DNA from: Streptomyces sp. Q6
Lineage (GTDB): Bacteria > Actinomycetota > Actinomycetes > Streptomycetales > Streptomycetaceae
Assembly (NCBI RefSeq): GCF_036967205.1
Contig: NZ_CP146023.1
Coordinates: forward strand, 186,001-250,000
DNA length: 64,000 nucleotides
Reading direction: 5' to 3'
Of this stretch, positions 1 to 7,135 are shown one piece after another (positions within the stretch are counted from its first letter, which is position 1; each line of letters starts with the position of its first letter). The translations under genes were made by a program, and so were the position numbers. The notes beneath the pieces are model-generated. The model did no database searches. It saw only the letters and a list, made by a program, of their open reading frames with translations, and had not been told where the DNA came from.

Positions 1-1
1 C

Positions 2-916
2 CGGCACGCGCCGGCCGACTGTCCGTGTCGCACGCAGGGCCGCTGGTGCCACGGGTTCCACGCCGCGACCACGGATCCCGCTCTGATCGACGCTTGGTGG
101 GGCGCTCAGCCCCGCTTCGGGGTCGGTGTCTCCTGCGGTCCGGCCGACCTCGTGGTTCTCGACGTCGACGCGCATGCCGCGCAGGTCCCCGACCGCTCGC
201 GCCTGCTGCCCGGGATCCCGATCGGCCCCCAGGTCGATCTGGCGGGCCTGGCCACCGGTTTTGACACGCTCGCCCTGCTTGCCGCGCTGCGAGGACAGCC
301 CAGCCCCGCAGAGGACGAGACCACTCTGAGAGTGCGTACTCCCTCGGGCGGGGTGCACGTCTGGTACACCAACCCCGATCCGCGCATCCGCTATCGCTCT
401 TCCACCGGCTCCAGCCCGAAGACCGCGCTGGCCTGGCAGGTCGATGTCCGGGCCGACAACGGCTACATCGTTGCGCCTGCCACCCGCACCACCGCCGGGA
501 GCTACCGCCCCCTGGGCACCGCCCGCACCCCGGCCTTGCTGCCCGACTGGCTTGCCGCGGAGCTCGTGCGCACCGGCCATGTCCCGCCCTCGCCCGCAGC
601 CGCACCGGTGCCGGTACCGCGGCGCAGCCGGCCGGGCAAGGGCGCCGACCGGCTGCTCGCTCCGCTTCTCGCCGAAGTCGCCGCATGCGCCGCCGTACCG
701 GAAGGCGCGAGCTTCTCCGAGAAGCTCAACCGTGCCGCCTACACCGTCGGCGGACTGACCGCGGGTGGGTATCTCACGGAGGCCGAGGGCCTGGCCCTGC
801 TGTGGGACGTGGCGCGCACCGCCCGCCCCGGCCAGGAACGCCGCAGCCGCACGATCATCGAGTCCGCTCTGTCCGCCGGCGCCCAGCGCCCGCTCCATCC
901 CCGAGGACGCTCATGA
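2..916 (+). CDS. Bifunctional DNA primase/polymerase (AEP Prim-Pol), 5' end outside window
   Basis: The frame is open from the left edge, so the N-terminus is missing. The visible protein starts with a Cys/His-rich stretch (CPCRTQGRWCHGFH) and continues into an archaeo-eukaryotic primase fold. The DxD metal motif reads VLDVDAH (about 155-175), the second motif is SGGVHVWY (S-G-G-x-H), and a third acidic motif is WQVDVRA. The C-terminal part (FSEKLNRAAY...) looks like a primase C-terminal helical domain. Such enzymes make primers and copy DNA for plasmids, phages and satellites. The stop overlaps the next start as ATGA, so translation of the D5 helicase is probably coupled. A paralogue with broken motifs lies at 4019-4999. 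The family call comes from motif order; the role in replication is inferred. Confidence 0.85.
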   Translation, partial: RHAPADCPCRTQGRWCHGFHAATTDPALIDAWWGAQPRFGVGVSCGPADLVVLDVDAHAAQVPDRSRLLPGIPIGPQVDLAGLATGFDTLALLAALRGQPSPAEDETTLRVRTPSGGVHVWYTNPDPRIRYRSSTGSSPKTALAWQVDVRADNGYIVAPATRTTAGSYRPLGTARTPALLPDWLAAELVRTGHVPPSPAAAPVPVPRRSRPGKGADRLLAPLLAEVAACAAVPEGASFSEKLNRAAYTVGGLTAGGYLTEAEGLALLWDVARTARPGQERRSRTIIESALSAGAQRPLHPRGRS

Positions 917-2478
917 GCGCCGAACCGCCCGCCCGCTTCGACGCGGAAGCCGCAGCAGCGCAGATCAACCAGCAGGCCCTCGACTTCCCCCTGCCGGCGC
1001 CGCATCATCCCCAACTGCCCGCGCAGCAGCGCGACCAGAGCCCCGTTTCCGAAACGTCCCAGCCAGGTTTCGTACCGGACTCTCTCACCGACCGGGGCAA
1101 CGCCAAGCTCTTCGCCCGGCTCTACTCCGACCAGTTCCGCTATGTGCTCGGGATGGGCTGGCACACCTGGGACACCTACCGCTGGAAACTCACCGGGGGA
1201 GAGGAAGCCGCCGTTTGGGCGGCGGGGGAGATGGCCGAGCAAATCGGCGACCGCGACCCCTCCGGCCGCTTCACCGACCGTCAGGTCGCTGCCCACCGCC
1301 GCCACTCCGAGTCGACCTCCGGGGTCAAGGCCATGCTTTACCAGGCGCAGGCGGCCCCGGCGCTGCGGCTGGACCCCGACCTGCTCGACGGCGACAACTA
1401 CGCCCTGTGCACCCCGTCCGGCGTCGTCGACTTGCGCACCGGGGTGTTGCGCAAGCCGAACCCGCTGACCGACATGCACTCGCGGGCCACCACCGTCGCA
1501 CCACAGAAGATGCCGGTCCCGCGCTGGCACAACTTCCTGGCCGACACTTTCGGCGACGACTCCCGGGGCGAGGAGACCATCCGGTTCCTGCACCTGCTCC
1601 TCGGCTACTCCATCACCGGAGACGTCGGCGCCCAGGTCCTGCCTTTTTTGTACGGGTCCGGGGCCAACGGCAAGTCCGTCCTGCTGGAAGTCACCATGCA
1701 GATCCTCGGCGACTACGCCAATGCCGCGCCGCCTGGATTCCTCATGGAGAAGGGCAAGTTCACCGAGCACTCGACGGAATTGACCGAGCTGCACGGGCGC
1801 CGCATCGTGGTGTGCTCCGAACTCAAGCCCAATGACAAGTTCAACGAGGCTCGTGTCAAACTGCTCACGGGCGGCGACACCATCACAGCCCGCCGCATGC
1901 GGCAGAACTTCTTCACATTCACGCCCACGCACAAGCTGTGGCTGCTCGGCAATCATCGCCCGGAGGTCGGTACCGGCGGGCACGCGTTCTGGCGCCGTAT
2001 GCGGCTGATCCCGTTCGAGCGCCGGGTGCCCGACGACCGGAAGATCGACAACCTGGCCGCTGAACTCGTCGCCGACGAGGGCCCCGGCATCCTGCAGTGG
2101 CTCATCGAGGGCGCCCAGCGGTACCTGGCCACCCGCGATCCGCTGCGCGGACCCGACTCCGTACGCATCGCCACCGCCGCCTACCAGACCACCGAGGACC
2201 ACATCGGGCGCTTCCTCGGCGAACGCTGCACCACCGGCAGCGGAGGCCGCCCCGACCTCGATCTGCGGGTCGAGCAGAAGCTTCTCTACATCGCCTACTG
2301 CCAGTGGTGCGCCGACGAGGACATCCGGGCCTCCACCTCCCGGGCGTTCGCCAGTCGCATCCGCCAGGAACTGGGACTCTCGTCCCCCAACGACATGATC
2401 AAGAACAACACGAAGAAGCTGTACCCCGGACTCGCCCTGCTGCCCGAAGCTCCCGAGGACAGGGACACCACCTCATGA
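913..2478 (+). CDS. D5/P4-type phage-plasmid primase-helicase
   Basis: 521 residues. The start is the ATG of the ATGA overlap with the primase-polymerase; the longer upstream frame only runs antiparallel in sense through that gene. The N-terminal D5_N-like region (residues 50-210) leads into a superfamily 3 helicase core with Walker A GSGANGKS at 248-255 and the downstream CSELKPNDKF and WLLGNHRPEV segments typical of P4-family proteins. It would unwind the origin or fork as a hexamer, using primers from the upstream gene. The 522-residue paralogue at 4996-6564 aligns over its whole length. Oddity: a run of six T residues (about 1644-1649) just before Walker A, where the paralogue has CCCTTCCTG; this run could be prone to slippage. 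Confidence 0.9.
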   Translation: MSAEPPARFDAEAAAAQINQQALDFPLPAPHHPQLPAQQRDQSPVSETSQPGFVPDSLTDRGNAKLFARLYSDQFRYVLGMGWHTWDTYRWKLTGGEEAAVWAAGEMAEQIGDRDPSGRFTDRQVAAHRRHSESTSGVKAMLYQAQAAPALRLDPDLLDGDNYALCTPSGVVDLRTGVLRKPNPLTDMHSRATTVAPQKMPVPRWHNFLADTFGDDSRGEETIRFLHLLLGYSITGDVGAQVLPFLYGSGANGKSVLLEVTMQILGDYANAAPPGFLMEKGKFTEHSTELTELHGRRIVVCSELKPNDKFNEARVKLLTGGDTITARRMRQNFFTFTPTHKLWLLGNHRPEVGTGGHAFWRRMRLIPFERRVPDDRKIDNLAAELVADEGPGILQWLIEGAQRYLATRDPLRGPDSVRIATAAYQTTEDHIGRFLGERCTTGSGGRPDLDLRVEQKLLYIAYCQWCADEDIRASTSRAFASRIRQELGLSSPNDMIKNNTKKLYPGLALLPEAPEDRDTTS

Positions 2479-2626
2479 CGCTCCCCGGACCCCGGTCCGC
2501 CCTGGCGGACCGCCCGTACCATGGAGACGGCTCTCCGAAGCGGTCGCTTGTCGGCCGAGCTGGACCCAGCCGAGCGAAGACCACCCGAGCCGGCCGTCCG
2601 ACGGCCGCCCGCACGAAGGAGGCCCG

Positions 2627-3010
2627 ATGAGCGCGATGCCGCAGGAAGGCGATCTCGCCCAGGAGGCCGAGCTCGTGTGGCTGGAGGACCCCGCGGAGCT
2701 CGACTACGTCCGCCAGGCCCTCGACAAGGTCAACACCCGCCGCGGCAAGCCCCGTTACGAGCGGGACGGCCGTCTCATCGGATACGCCAACCTCACCCCG
2801 AAGGCGCCCCGCAGCGCCGACAGCGGCCTGTTCGCCCGGCGCACCTTCTACCTGCTGCCGCACGACCGGCCCAACGACCCCGAGGACTGCCCCTACGCCG
2901 TCGGTTCCCCCCTCGAGGCCGTCGACCCCCGCACCCTGCGACCGGGCCGGCTCGGGGAGAAGACGGCCCGGTCGCAGGGCACCCCGGAGATAGCTCCGAC
3001 CAGCACCTGA
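2627..3010 (+). CDS. DUF6009-like small protein, copy 1
   Basis: 127 residues with a clear ribosome site (GAAGGAGG, about 6 nt before the ATG). It resembles the small Streptomyces family I remember as DUF6009; function unknown. The most conserved parts are a Leu/Tyr-rich helix (ELDYVRQALDK), a basic RDGRLIGYA turn and FYLLPHDRP. There is no signal peptide, membrane segment or cysteine pair. It is the third gene of a module with the primase-polymerase and D5 helicase, about 150 bp after the latter; a clear homologue occupies the same place in the second module (6755-7135). The repeated linkage suggests a part in the element's replication or its control, but that is inference. Confidence 0.75.
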   Translation: MSAMPQEGDLAQEAELVWLEDPAELDYVRQALDKVNTRRGKPRYERDGRLIGYANLTPKAPRSADSGLFARRTFYLLPHDRPNDPEDCPYAVGSPLEAVDPRTLRPGRLGEKTARSQGTPEIAPTST

Positions 3011-3634
3011 CCCGGGACGTAAGGGCCTGGGTCAGTGGGTTCGTAGGGTCGAGAATCCGGCGGCCCGGGCACCGATCCATCGGATCGCCGGAACGCTCGA
3101 CACAACATGTTCCGAGCTGTTCGCGCCTGCCCAGGATCAGTGGCCTAGGCCACTCGGCAGCGGCTTTGGCCGGAAGGCCGATCAAGCGGTTCCAACTCCT
3201 CACCCGGCCGCAGCCGATTGGGTTCGTAGAAGGCTTTCTGGCATTCGCGGACGCTCCCGCCGCCAGGAGGGGCTCGTAGACCACCGGGGCGCTGTGTGAG
3301 GAGAAGCCCAGCAGGCGGCTGGCCACCCGGGGACCGGCCCACCTGCTCGCCATACCGGAACCCCTCCTGGACACTCCGGCCGAGCGGTTGGCGAGCGCCC
3401 CGGGTTGCTGAAGGTGTGGGTCACGGCGCGAATCACCGCGTGAGGCTGTGTCAACAAGGCACCCAGTCCAGTACCAGGAACATTCACGCTCATGTTGATC
3501 TCAAGGATAGGAGGAGACAAGCCCTCAGAGACCAAGGGTTTGAAGGCGGGCACGGGGAGGGACCGGGCGCGCTGTGGTCCTCGAGGCGGGCCCAGGTGTT
3601 TACGCAGGTCGGAGGGCTCTTTGCAGAACCTGAC
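3011..3634. other. Intergenic spacer, left half
   Basis: No gene is recognised here on either strand; the open frames have poor codon bias and no family resemblance. The spacer separates the two replication-type modules and leads into the repeat-bearing segment at 3635-4012. Confidence 0.5.
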
Positions 3635-4012
3635 AGGGACTGTAGGGACTGAACTTTGCCATGATGACGCAGGCAAGACATGTATCCATATACGCGGGAG
3701 GATGTGACACACATGTCAACTTCAGCTCATAATGGAGAAGTAGAGTCCCTACAGTCCCTCTCGGGATCGGATGTACGCCTCTGAACTGCAATGATGCCCA
3801 GGGATTGAGCGGGTGCTCTTCATTCCATCCAGACCCCGCCGTTCGGTCCCTGGCCCCTGAGTGCCTCGAGCGGCCCGGTGAAACACCTACCGTGGTCCTT
3901 GAGGGACCCAAGGGACTGAGGGGCCCAATAAAAACGCCGTGGCGATCGAACAACCTTCCTTCTGTGAAGGCGGACCGTACACTCTTCTCGCATCAGAGTC
4001 CCTTCGGTCCCT
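3635..4012. repeat. Four iteron-like 16-bp repeats in alternating orientation
   Basis: The unit is AGGGACnnnAGGGACT. Copy 1 is at 3635-3650 (AGGGACTGTAGGGACT). Copy 2 is its exact reverse complement at 3744-3759. Copy 3 is at 3902-3917 (centre CCA) and copy 4, inverted, at 3997-4012. The outer hexamers are conserved and only the central three bases vary, as expected of protein-binding sites. The stretch 3660-3740 between copies 1 and 2 is unusually AT-rich for this DNA. Lying directly before a primase-polymerase/helicase pair, the array could be a replication origin with iterons or an operator set. Both readings are inference. Confidence 0.7.
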
Positions 4013-4018
4013 GACGGT

Positions 4019-4999
4019 TTGGCAACGTGTCAGGTGTGTGAAGTAAGCGGGCAGACAGAAGTGACGAGGACGATTCCTGTGCTGAGCGAAGGAGAGAACC
4101 GAGACAGTGCCGTCAGAGTGGCGCCCGCGGCTCCTGCCCCTCCGCAGGCCGTCGCCCGCTGGTTTGCGGCGCAGGGCTGGGCGGCGCATCCTCTCCGCGC
4201 GGGCCGCAGTCTGCCTGTCAGGAGCTGTCATTTTTCCTGTTCAAGGGGCCCGCATGAGTCGGCGAGCTGCTTCTGCTTCCACACAGGCCGTCCCTGTCAT
4301 GGTTTCCACTTCGCGACGACTGATCCTGAACTCATTGAGCGATGGTGGCCAGACACACGTTCCGCGGGCCCGGGTGTTGCCTGTGTTTCTGAGGATCTTG
4401 TCGTGAGCGGCATCGGTGCTCACCATGTGCCCGTGGCAAACCGGATTCATCCGCTTCCGGGTGTCTCTGCTCCGGACCAGGTTGAACTCGCCGCGGTCTC
4501 TGGCTTCGATACGTCGGCGCTCCTTGCGGTCCAGCGAAGTGAGCATGATCCGGCGTATGACGAAGACACACTGCGGGTGCGTCCTTCATCGGGCGGCCTG
4601 TATGTCTCGTACCGGAACCCTGATGCCAACACCCGCTACCGCTGCTCAACGGGGTCCGGGCGAAACATGGCGCGTGGCCGGCAGGCCGATGTGCGGGCGG
4701 GCCGCAGCCTCATCGTGCCCCGGGGTACCCGTATGCCCAAGGGCGTCTGCCGCGGAGGGCCCTCCCTTTCGCGGGCTGCTACTTCGGAGGGAATGGACTT
4801 CTCGGAGAAGCTCAACAGGGTTACCTGCACAGCCTGTGGCCCGGTCGGTGCGGGCCTTGAGCTCGCCGCCAGTCGCGAGCAATGTGTCCATGCCGTTCAC
4901 CGTGCCCACCCTTGGCAGCAGTCCAGGGATGAACAGATCGTTGACGACCCCCTTGCCGTCGGGTCCGTCCGCCCTCTTCACCTCAAAGGACGTTCATGA
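4019..4999 (+). CDS. Degenerate primase-polymerase paralogue with lost catalytic motifs
   Basis: Homologue of the gene at 2-916. The N-terminal region keeps APPQAVARWFAAQGWAAHPL and the Cys/His stretch ending CHGFHFATTD. The DxD motif has become VVSGIGAH (about 4400-4420) and S-G-G-x-H has become SGGLYVSY (His to Tyr), so two of three primase-polymerase motifs are gone. About 45 residues are also missing before FSEKLNR. The frame remains open and ends in the same ATGA overlap with the helicase gene. The true start may be GTG 4079 or GTG 4118 instead of TTG 4019. It is probably catalytically dead: a pseudogene in progress, or kept because helicase translation is coupled to it. Confidence 0.7.
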   Translation: MATCQVCEVSGQTEVTRTIPVLSEGENRDSAVRVAPAAPAPPQAVARWFAAQGWAAHPLRAGRSLPVRSCHFSCSRGPHESASCFCFHTGRPCHGFHFATTDPELIERWWPDTRSAGPGVACVSEDLVVSGIGAHHVPVANRIHPLPGVSAPDQVELAAVSGFDTSALLAVQRSEHDPAYDEDTLRVRPSSGGLYVSYRNPDANTRYRCSTGSGRNMARGRQADVRAGRSLIVPRGTRMPKGVCRGGPSLSRAATSEGMDFSEKLNRVTCTACGPVGAGLELAASREQCVHAVHRAHPWQQSRDEQIVDDPLAVGSVRPLHLKGRS

Positions 5000-6564
5000 G
5001 CAGCAGTGCCGAAGACTCCCCGCGTTTTGATCCGCAGGCTGCCGCTCAGCAGATGCTCGACCTTGGGTCGGCGGACGCGGTGCCCAGTACCGCCCGGTTT
5101 CCCGCGCAGGTCGGTCCCTTTGTCTCGTCGGCTCCGCAAACGGTGAGCGTTCCCACGGGGGCTGCCATCGGTGTGCCGGCCGCGTTGCCTCCCTCGCTTT
5201 CCGACCGGGGAAACGCTCGGCTCTTCGTGCAACTGCACCGTGACCAGTTCCGTCATGTGGAGGGCTTGGGCTGGTTCTCGTGGGACGGCTATCGGTGGAA
5301 GCGTGGGGGAGGGGAGAAGGCCGCCCTGTGGGCTGCGGGGGAGATGGCCGAGGACATGCCGGTCAGCGATCCGCGCGGTGTCTTCAGTAACCGTGACCTC
5401 GTCCAGCACAAGCGGCGCACCCTGTCGACAACGGGCCTCAAGGCCCTCCTGACACAGGCGAAGGCATCGCCTGACATATCCGTCGATCCCGACCGGCTCG
5501 ACGGAGACCCCTACGCCCTGTGCACTCCCGTGGGTGTGGTCGACCTGAACACCGGGCATCTGCGCAAGCCCGACCCGACCCGCGACTTCCACTCCCGCGC
5601 CACCAGCGTTGCCCCGCAGGACATGGAGACGCCGCGCTGGCACCGCTTCCTCGCCGACACCTTCGGGGACGACGACGAGGGCCGGGAGATGATCGACTTC
5701 CTGCATCTGCTGCTCGGCTACTCCATCACGGGCGACGTCGGCGCTCAGGTGCTGCCCTTCCTGCACGGTGAGGGCAAGAACGGCAAGTCCGTCCTGCTCG
5801 ACATCATGATTCAGGTCCTCGGTGACTACGCCGACGCGGCCCCGCCGGGCTTTCTGATGGACCGGGGCGCCTTCTCGGAGCACTCCACAGAACTGACCGA
5901 ACTACATGGGCGCCGTCTGGTGGTGTGCAGCGAACTGAAGCCGAACGACAAGTTCGACGAGGCACGCGTTCGGCTGCTGACGGGCGGCGACAAGATAAAG
6001 GCCCGTCGGATGCGGCAGGACTACTTCTCGTTCACCCCCACCCATCACCTGTGGCTGCTCGGCAACCACCGCCCGGAGGTCTCTACCGGCGGCTTCGCCT
6101 TCTGGCGCCGCATCCGTCTGCTGCCTTTCACCCGCACGGTTCCGGCGCACCGCAGGATCGACAACCTCGCCTTCGAACTTGTACGGGACGAAGGCCCGGG
6201 AATCCTGCACTGGCTGATCCAGGGGGCGCGGCGCTACTTGGGCACCAGAGATCCGCTGGAGGGCCCCGACCGGGTTCGTATGGCCACCACGGCGTATGCC
6301 ACCACCGAGGACCACATCGGCCGTTTCCTCGCCGAGTGCTGCACGCGGGACTGTGATCCGGGCAAGGACCTGCGGGTGGAGCAGGGTTTGCTCTACGCCG
6401 AGTACAGCTCCTGGTGCAACGCCGGCGAAGGCATTCGGCCCGCGACCCCGCGTGCTTTCGCGAACCGGATCCGCCAGGAGGTGGGCGTCGCCTCGCCGAC
6501 CGACATGATCAAGTCGAACGGCCGCAAGTATTACCCCGGAATCGGCCTGTTGGGGCAGGCATGA
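4996..6564 (+). CDS. D5/P4-type phage-plasmid primase-helicase, copy 2
   Basis: 522 residues, starting at the ATG of an ATGA overlap with the degenerate primase-polymerase. Walker A is GEGKNGKS at 258-265. The CSELKPNDKFDEARVRLL and WLLGNHRPEVSTGG segments match copy 1, and all motifs look intact, unlike its upstream partner. Predicted ATP-driven hexameric helicase/primase for an extrachromosomal or integrated element. The C-terminal part (TPRAFANRIRQEVG) is typical of the winged-helix tail of these proteins. Retention of an intact helicase beside a dead polymerase suggests it may use the polymerase of copy 1 in trans; this is inference. Confidence 0.9.
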   Translation: MSSSAEDSPRFDPQAAAQQMLDLGSADAVPSTARFPAQVGPFVSSAPQTVSVPTGAAIGVPAALPPSLSDRGNARLFVQLHRDQFRHVEGLGWFSWDGYRWKRGGGEKAALWAAGEMAEDMPVSDPRGVFSNRDLVQHKRRTLSTTGLKALLTQAKASPDISVDPDRLDGDPYALCTPVGVVDLNTGHLRKPDPTRDFHSRATSVAPQDMETPRWHRFLADTFGDDDEGREMIDFLHLLLGYSITGDVGAQVLPFLHGEGKNGKSVLLDIMIQVLGDYADAAPPGFLMDRGAFSEHSTELTELHGRRLVVCSELKPNDKFDEARVRLLTGGDKIKARRMRQDYFSFTPTHHLWLLGNHRPEVSTGGFAFWRRIRLLPFTRTVPAHRRIDNLAFELVRDEGPGILHWLIQGARRYLGTRDPLEGPDRVRMATTAYATTEDHIGRFLAECCTRDCDPGKDLRVEQGLLYAEYSSWCNAGEGIRPATPRAFANRIRQEVGVASPTDMIKSNGRKYYPGIGLLGQA

Positions 6565-6754
6565 GGGCTGGCGTGGGGCAGTCATCCACCCGACGTGCCT
6601 TACACCCATGCCGAGGTGCGCTCTACGATGGGGGCCCGGCCCCGTACCCGGTTGTCCCCACGGAGCGGCCCGTCACCTTGCGGCGAGCGGGACGGATCGA
6701 TGCCCGGACGCCCCCGGCGCCGGGGAGCATGCCGACGAAGGAGGGGCAGCGGCC

Positions 6755-7135
6755 ATGAGTTCGCTGTTGACCGAGAGCGACCTCATCCACGAGGCCGAGG
6801 TGGTGTGGCTGGAGAACCTCGAACGGCTCGACTACGTCCGTCAGGCACTGGACAAGACCAAGCGGCGCAACACCAAGCCGCCGTACGCGCGCGACGGCCG
6901 CATGGTGGGCTACGCGCTGCTGGACGAGGACGCCTCGCCGGACCCGGACAGCGGCCTGTACAAGCGGCGCGTGTTCTTCCTGCTGCCGCACGACCGTGAC
7001 AGCCTCCCCGACGGCCTCTACCGTGAGGGCGCCCCGGGCGAGGCCATTGACCCGCGCACGATCGAGCCGAGGAAGCCGGGAGCGAAGACGCCCCGGTCTC
7101 AGTCGGGATCGGCAGCCGTGGCTTCGGTGCCCTGA
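6755..7135 (+). CDS. DUF6009-like small protein, copy 2
   Basis: 126 residues. The ATG follows a strong ribosome site (GAAGGAGGGG, 6737-6746). It aligns end to end with the protein at 2627-3010: EAEVVWLEN, LDYVRQALDK, YARDGRMVGYA and VFFLLPHDRD. Function unknown; the family name DUF6009 is from memory. As in copy 1 it is third in the module, about 190 bp after the helicase gene. The tail is basic and rich in Ser/Pro. No signal peptide or membrane helix is visible. Confidence 0.75.
   Translation: MSSLLTESDLIHEAEVVWLENLERLDYVRQALDKTKRRNTKPPYARDGRMVGYALLDEDASPDPDSGLYKRRVFFLLPHDRDSLPDGLYREGAPGEAIDPRTIEPRKPGAKTPRSQSGSAAVASVP

Follow-up and report, generated by a model that had tools for sequence, protein, structure and literature searches.

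Two primase-helicase-DUF6009 blocks of separate origin on a Streptomyces contig, and the paired iterons of their relatives

Gene clusters for antibiotic production are often found on the large linear plasmids of Streptomyces. To our knowledge, the replication start of these plasmids and their coexistence have been little mapped. Here we describe two three-gene blocks, named c1 and c2, in a 64,000-nucleotide stretch of Streptomyces sp. Q6, which we call the window. It covers positions 186001-250000 of C2, the 385,579-bp contig of a two-contig, 8.95-Mb genome. Each block has genes for a Prim-Pol primase, a D5-type helicase and a DUF6009 protein. A third block on the same contig was named c3.

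Several described modules resemble these blocks in part. In KVP1, a putative replication protein and a primase/helicase-like gene are described at a central origin; this is said to agree with other linear plasmids of Streptomyces, for which the SCP1 and pSLA2-L papers are cited there (PMC5331497). As described in that passage, origins of the SCP1/pSLA2-L type are like our blocks in having a replication protein and a primase/helicase-like gene, but DUF6009 and the site classes reported below are absent from the passage. In actinomycete integrative and conjugative elements (AICEs), a Prim-Pol gene is likewise followed by a second replication gene, and the partner in the AICE Sgha02332 has a Poxvirus_D5 domain. 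The partners named in the cited text are mostly RepAM or SCO4618-like (PMC3218068), whereas our blocks are plasmid-borne, several with par genes, and include DUF6009. The RepB protein of pWTY27 is a predicted primase/polymerase, and the direct and long inverted repeats by its rep genes are bound by RepA. However, RepA is called hypothetical in the cited section, and the repeat words are GTGGGAAC and TTCCCAC (PMC3583192).

The CCPol-MP-Cch2 module of the staphylococcal cassette chromosome mec (SCCmec) also comprises three genes, for a primase, a small protein and a helicase. According to the cited part of PMC7581432, a specific sequence, called an iteron in a section heading, is bound by the Cch2 helicase, and the small protein MP is needed for priming. 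CCPol is described there as an A-family polymerase and not a Prim-Pol, whereas the Pfam match of our block primases was PF09250 only; and MP is the product of the middle gene, whereas DUF6009 is that of the last gene of our block. The likeness to phage P4 lies in the helicases, which scored over the cut-off of the NCBIfam model TIGR01613 ("phage/plasmid primase, P4 family"), besides PF08706 and PF19263. P4 alpha is described as uniting origin recognition, helicase and primase, and P4 cnr controls copy number (cited passage of PMC8628076). In contrast to the fused alpha, primase and helicase of our blocks are encoded by separate genes with an ATGA overlap, and we have no evidence that DUF6009 resembles Cnr. 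Cch2 of SCCmec, whose partner primase consists of a polymerase plus a small protein, and alpha/cnr of P4 are precedents for the helicase-iteron-primase mechanism proposed below. Titles and abstract starts of papers on iterons, primases or linear plasmids in Streptomyces showed no such site classes, in a search outside which most subscription papers lay, and DUF6009 was named in no open-licence paper searched.

The two blocks and the exchanged segment

Family search gave the same gene order in both blocks: Prim-Pol (PF09250), D5-type helicase (PF08706 and PF19263) and DUF6009 (PF19472). Block c1 spans window positions -139 to 3010 on the + strand. Its primase gene starts before the window (at -139, C2:185861), occupies 1..916 within it (+) and has intact catalytic motifs. 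The gene of the D5/P4-family helicase (913..2478, +) overlaps it by ATGA at 913-916, and the DUF6009 gene follows at 2627..3010 (+). Block c2 (3635-7135) consists of four double iterons, a primase remnant (4019..4999, +) whose frame is open and whose start codon is uncertain, a D5/P4-family helicase gene (4996..6564, +) with its ATGA overlap at 4996-4999, and a DUF6009 gene (6755..7135, +). The gene order and ATGA coupling reported in the preliminary description were thus confirmed. That the block occurs twice holds for the window, with three amendments: c1 starts before the window, the c2 primase is degraded, and the third block, c3, lies on the same contig at C2:110.5-113.8 kb, ~72 kb left of c1 and c2. 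Block c3 belongs to class B, defined below. In the whole genome three D5_N matches and three DUF6009 matches were found, every one inside c1, c2 or c3; Prim-Pol matches numbered nine.

The preliminary description had taken the two blocks for a tandem duplication. In the helicase tree, c2 stood beside Streptomyces sp. NBC_00028, at a distance of 0.066 from its nearest relative, and c1 fell into a clade named A' (support 1.0, 13 members), 0.309 from its nearest relative; the distance between c1 and c2 was 1.305. The c1 and c2 helicases were 67% identical, those of c2 and NBC_00028 94%. From about window position 3452, c2 and the genes downstream of it matched the linear plasmid of NBC_00028, which at 90% identity matched 89% of window 3300-27000. 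Judged by tree and synteny, the two copies are not each other's closest relatives. They are of separate origin and not copies of one module, and c2 with the DNA following it is the native module of an NBC_00028-type linear plasmid.

Left of c1, C2:166001-172953 aligned piecewise, at 78-93% identity, with positions 184365-195090 of NBC_00028, from which some shorter parts were absent in C2. Rightward, the match resumed at C2:189452, and the NBC_00028-like backbone begins at about window 3452..3484. Between these matching flanks NBC_00028 has 9 kb (S8 peptidase, HTH, ParB, ParA and a hypothetical protein) that are absent from C2, which has 16.5 kb of foreign DNA instead, reaching leftward to C2:172954. 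When the whole Q6 genome was searched with the NBC_00028 ParA, the only matches were two proteins of the chromosome (34% and 29% identical). The 16.5-kb segment contains a ParA-like gene with a gene for a 212-aa partner, a transposase-like gene, an acyl-CoA-oxidase-like gene and the c1 block; the transposase-like and acyl-CoA-oxidase-like genes were named from the look of their translations and not by family search. The ParA-like gene lies ~6 kb before the c1 primase gene. In NBC_00304 and Mut1, the same ParA-like pair was found 0.7-0.8 kb upstream of a c1-like A' block. Pair and block almost adjoin there, unlike in C2, where the transposase-like and acyl-CoA-oxidase-like genes (C2:181.1-183.6 kb; L006 1103-3648) lie between them.

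Since NBC_00028-type backbone is present on both sides and the resident 9 kb are gone, the c1 segment looks like an exchange. In the simplest history, a foreign rep-par segment would have replaced the resident partition segment beside the resident rep block, and the window would show how such a plasmid can exchange replication and partition genes. A true tandem duplication of one module, the copies of which then diverged, would agree with the like gene order and ATGA junctions. It is contradicted by the tree and the synteny, unless conversion by an A' plasmid later overwrote c1: the c1 helicase is placed in a clade of full support and is far less similar to that of c2 than the latter is to NBC_00028, the iteron classes of c1 and c2 differ, and the flanks show a foreign segment. 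We consider such a duplication very improbable. Alternatively, two whole plasmids may have formed a co-integrate, to which both brought their backbones, followed by deletions. The own ParA-like pair of c1 and the third, B-class module on the contig speak for this, but NBC_00028-type DNA flanking the 16.5-kb segment and the missing 9 kb have the look of an exchange. With a synteny comparison that covered part of the 385-kb contig, we hold a co-integrate to be unlikely, though a serious alternative.

Paired iterons and helicase classes

A sample of 150 genomes was drawn from the genus (the draw). In 47 of its modules, the DNA upstream of the primase genes contained 532 exact 6-mer repeats spaced 9 bp apart, against 18.6 expected. 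A run of G in locus L097 adds ~24 to the 532, and other short periods were raised less (at most 163). The sites fell into classes by helicase clade, AGGGAC in A, CGGGAC in A' and AGCGAC in B, and paired sites were found upstream of nearly all blocks. Modules were scored over all loci: 173 had a helicase above 780 bits, and 157 were left after removal of 16 with identical helicase. They were also typed by arrangement, type A having a gap between the helicase and DUF6009 genes and type B having these two genes overlapping or adjoining. Among modules with any site, AGGGAC- or CGGGAC-type pairs were present in 106 of 107 gap-type modules (L129 was ambiguous) and AGCGAC-type pairs in 32/32 overlapping or adjoining ones.

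The first double iteron of c2, AGGGAC-n3-AGGGAC, is located at 3635..3649 (+), and the second lies 110 bp on in the opposite orientation (3745..3759, -). The third (3902..3916, +) is likewise faced by the fourth, 96 bp on (3998..4012, -). This layout of four double sites in alternating direction is common to c1, c2, NBC_00028, NBC_00019, SAT1 and NBC_00663, with a spacing of ~110-113 bp in one facing pair and of 95-98 bp in the other. No double sites were found in window 7200-64000, 1.1 being expected per 64 kb. In c3, a second facing pair of AGCGAC double sites lies 3' of the DUF6009 gene (L007 9952 and 10030).

The helicases of the three classes differ at residues 507 and 509 (c2 numbering): A has S and G, A' has N and a residue other than G (N507 and T509 in c1), and B has S and Q. 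Among the 145 modules that had sites, residues and site class agreed in 144 (95 A, 12 A' and 37 B), the exception being L129 with its one ambiguous pair. In the predicted structure both residues are located in the wing of a C-terminal winged helix (helices 463-478 and 485-496, strands 505-507 and 510-514). The mean predicted local distance difference test score (pLDDT) of this model was 64 and its ATPase core was poor, and only the C-terminal winged-helix topology was used. Foldseek matches of the model (AsfvPrimPol, MPOX E5 and the SaPI5 primase-helicase 7ola; TM-scores ~0.3) back only the general family of the helicase. The wing may be the reader of the iterons. In the Rep proteins of Staphylococcus aureus pathogenicity islands (SaPIs), the origin is chosen by the C-terminal part.

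Primase loss and the replicon interpretation

The catalytic DxD and His motifs of Prim-Pol are present in the c1 and c3 primases but not in that of c2, where DVD/DID has become GIG and GGxH has become GGLY; ~70 aa are also missing in comparison with its relatives. The catalytic domain was covered in 126 non-redundant primases; both motif patterns were fitted by 122 of these and one was missed by three (L111, L188 and L192), and the c2 primase was the sole one fitting neither. The primases of its NBC_00028-type relatives are intact. The ratio of nonsynonymous to synonymous substitution rates (dN/dS) between c2 and NBC_00028 was 0.64 for the primase, 0.117 for the helicase and 0.116 for DUF6009; the primases of four intact relatives, compared with one another, gave 0.14-0.20. 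The 127 point changes on the c2 branch of the primase were distributed 36/52/39 over the codon positions, a flat spread as expected under little selection, and 58 of 192 residues invariant in the four relatives were changed. The frame is stop-free, with 2.5 stops expected (P(0)=0.077). All four double iterons are kept, spaced as in the relatives. By these measures the c2 primase evolves almost neutrally, while the c2 helicase and DUF6009 are under purifying selection and the origin sites are conserved. Two blocks are present, as stated when the element was first proposed to have two replication modules, but that both modules work is doubtful, the c2 primase being without catalytic residues. 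Translational coupling, considered as a reason for the open frame, is suggestive only; the ribosome-binding site of the helicase gene more simply accounts for the kept tail.

Primase loss was surveyed in the 37 draw genomes that had one or more helicases scoring above 780 bits; helicases that were weaker or broken were left out. The count includes the window's own genome as index case, and c2 and the second module of L109 were scored defective by hand. All 18 scorable lone modules had a full primase, one more being cut by a contig end. In the 18 multi-module genomes, 10 of 40 scorable modules lacked a working primase (Fisher 0.023 versus lone modules), and two more were cut by ends. Every primase-defective draw module shared its genome with an intact one. 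A- and B-type modules occurred together in 14 of the 18 multi-module genomes, and none of the 18 held two intact modules of one residue class.

When an A and an A' module were paired, exactly one primase was intact in 7 of the 8 genomes or plasmids examined, sometimes that of A and sometimes that of A' (G000, G019, G179, G190, G203, S. globisporus, counted once, and NBC_00663, with G402 as the exception). When A or A' was paired with B, exactly one was intact in 4 of 20 (G106 and the mutually similar L200, L203 and L206). The difference was significant in a table assembled by hand, in which three genomes count in both rows (7,1 versus 4,16; Fisher p 0.0019). An earlier test (7,1 versus 0,12; p 0.0001) omitted A/B pairs with a missing primase and was superseded, and the rule that A and A' are never both intact was dropped since G402 has both. 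The pattern of pairs fits primase sharing among close classes but does not prove it. In L196 (4275-5810 and upstream), a second primase is damaged in its catalytic domain, apparently by an in-frame deletion of ~90 codons. An identical primase-less A' helicase was found twice in one genome (L282 5069-6613 and L283 5185-6729), on the largest contig and on a 245-kb contig, each copy ~29.6 kb from the contig end, which suggests a shared terminal repeat.

We think it likely that the blocks are plasmid replicons with class-specific iterons, replicon replacement and a shareable primase. That they are replication modules, as the preliminary description also held, is inferred from their family content, plasmid location, the partition genes near several relatives and the conserved iteron arrays. 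ParA/ParB-type genes were found near the blocks of six chosen plasmid records (pSCL4, NBC_00028, NBC_00019, SAT1, NBC_00663 and S. anthocyanicus), and in the last five of these a primase-annotated block lies within ~8 kb of ParA and ParB genes; three chosen records have the ParA-like pair and one further record is unannotated. Each block would then be the replication module of a replicon of the Streptomyces linear-plasmid type, with double, 9-bp-spaced iterons in alternating orientation as a working origin. The helicase would read its own iteron class through the C-terminal winged helix and open the origin, the Prim-Pol primase would start synthesis there, and DUF6009 would assist or limit helicase or primase. 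The 16.5-kb segment, in which a ParA-like pair accompanies the foreign A' module c1, would have displaced the resident parAB segment and so brought c1 immediately before c2, the resident A module. Once the c1 primase was present, and presumably serving c2 in trans, selection on the c2 primase would have ended and its active site been lost, while the c2 iterons, helicase and DUF6009 were kept.

A wider reading can be offered only tentatively. The modules may form one large family of Streptomyces replicons in which the origins fall into three or more orthogonal classes (A, A' and B), read by a tiny wing code and acting as compatibility groups. Since no multi-module draw genome held more than one intact module of any class, a plasmid might stably carry a single intact module of each, and extra modules might be primase-less units that borrow a co-resident primase; the window would show such a takeover. 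The class code, two helicase residues or the origin words, would then let plasmid compatibility be predicted.

Several observations weigh against these readings. No site was found in 12 of the 157 modules, several of which were truncated where the contig or stretch ended, and some origins have fewer than four double sites (one in L136, three in the A' block of L247 and three in c3). The match of sites and residues is a correlation along clades with two splits only, A/B and A/A'; A and B are also told apart by 34 other helicase positions, and A and A', in a set with four A' helicases, are loosely told apart by 35 others. Both primases of G402, which has A' and A modules, are intact and one primase is missing in four A/B pairs, so that primase sharing does not follow class strictly. 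Outside the draw, modules in L179, L196, L205, L207 and L236 were without a full catalytic domain, in a comparison that covered one contig of each genome. The lack of stops in the c2 primase is not significant alone. In S. globisporus (L247) no par gene is annotated within 13 kb of the block. Four distant DUF6009 copies occur solo, and the DUF6009 model gave no PDB fold match at E 0.001.

Other roles for the parts of the blocks were also weighed. The dead c2 primase might be a pseudoenzyme that has retained a structural role, such as that of a helicase-binding scaffold, as its frame is open despite the 127 changes and in-frame indels and its C-terminal tail still aligns. Short tails with the ATGA junction also abut the helicase in L085, L205, L207, L209/L247 and L236, all without the catalytic domain. 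The near-neutral pattern and the many changed invariant residues argue against such a role, and the kept tail holds the probable ribosome-binding site of the helicase gene, a purine-rich AGGACG-like word before ATGA, which would explain its retention more simply; we judge a pseudoenzyme improbable. The paired repeats could also be transcriptional operators of the primase promoter instead of origins. Their last pair lies ~30-190 bp from the primase start, and repeats near rep genes of iteron plasmids often serve autoregulation too. However, up to four pairs form a constant, alternating arrangement that covers several hundred bp, further pairs are found 3' of the c3 block, and pairs are kept in modules without any primase gene. 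We judge operators instead of origins improbable, although operator and origin functions may go together. The preliminary description had also raised a defence system. No point supporting a defence or otherwise co-opted function of the three-gene block was found: none of six proteins matched PADLOC-DB at E 0.01, and the blocks are on plasmids, several beside par genes. We regard this function as extremely improbable.

DUF6009, the third gene

DUF6009 was found in 44 of the 150 draw genomes and the helicase (E 1e-20) in 46. Among plasmid records (PLSDB), DUF6009 was found in 324, of which 312 were from Streptomyces, and the helicase at E 1e-20 in 371, of which 324 were from Streptomyces. Linkage was counted in 58 draw loci (L006, L007 and 56 fetched stretches), where 56 of 62 copies above 60 bits lay directly 3' of the helicase gene; two were beside an inverted helicase gene and four were divergent and alone. 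Seven of the 71 DUF6009 places in the draw were weak or partial (at most 73 bits; G052:C1, G100, G115:C12, G124 and G148) and lay outside this count. Similarity to DUF6009 gave 83 further loci, of which three were viral and 80, the best of 319 relatives, came from genomes; in these, 84 of 87 copies above 60 bits lay directly 3' of the helicase gene and the other three at contig edges. The two sets overlap in some contigs, 11 modules in 10 contigs having helicases identical to those of draw modules. DUF6009 was present within 400 bp downstream of 148 of the 157 non-redundant helicases. Many loci having been chosen by DUF6009, the draw is the only fair sample for linkage.

Thus DUF6009 was not mostly unlinked from primase and helicase genes. 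By gene neighbourhood, it is a near-constant third gene of the block, in agreement with the earlier suggestion that the small protein is a third component. DUF6009 is probably a conserved accessory protein modulating the helicase or primase, and with its 324 plasmid records it becomes a concrete candidate replication factor. Its AlphaFold model was moderate in quality, with a mean pLDDT of 76, and two of the five models were alike. Neither DUF6009 copy in the window matched a PHROG or NCBIfam family at E 0.001.

The four solo divergent copies (98-110 bits) are located at L080 5536-5919, L091 5332-5763, L107 4137-4436 and L131 5160-5525, with no such helicase in the fetched stretches. The viral contigs L244, L245 and L246 gave three distant DUF6009 relatives only, at 35-36% identity. 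By tblastn, DUF6009 also matched one Natrinema and one Nostoc plasmid record.

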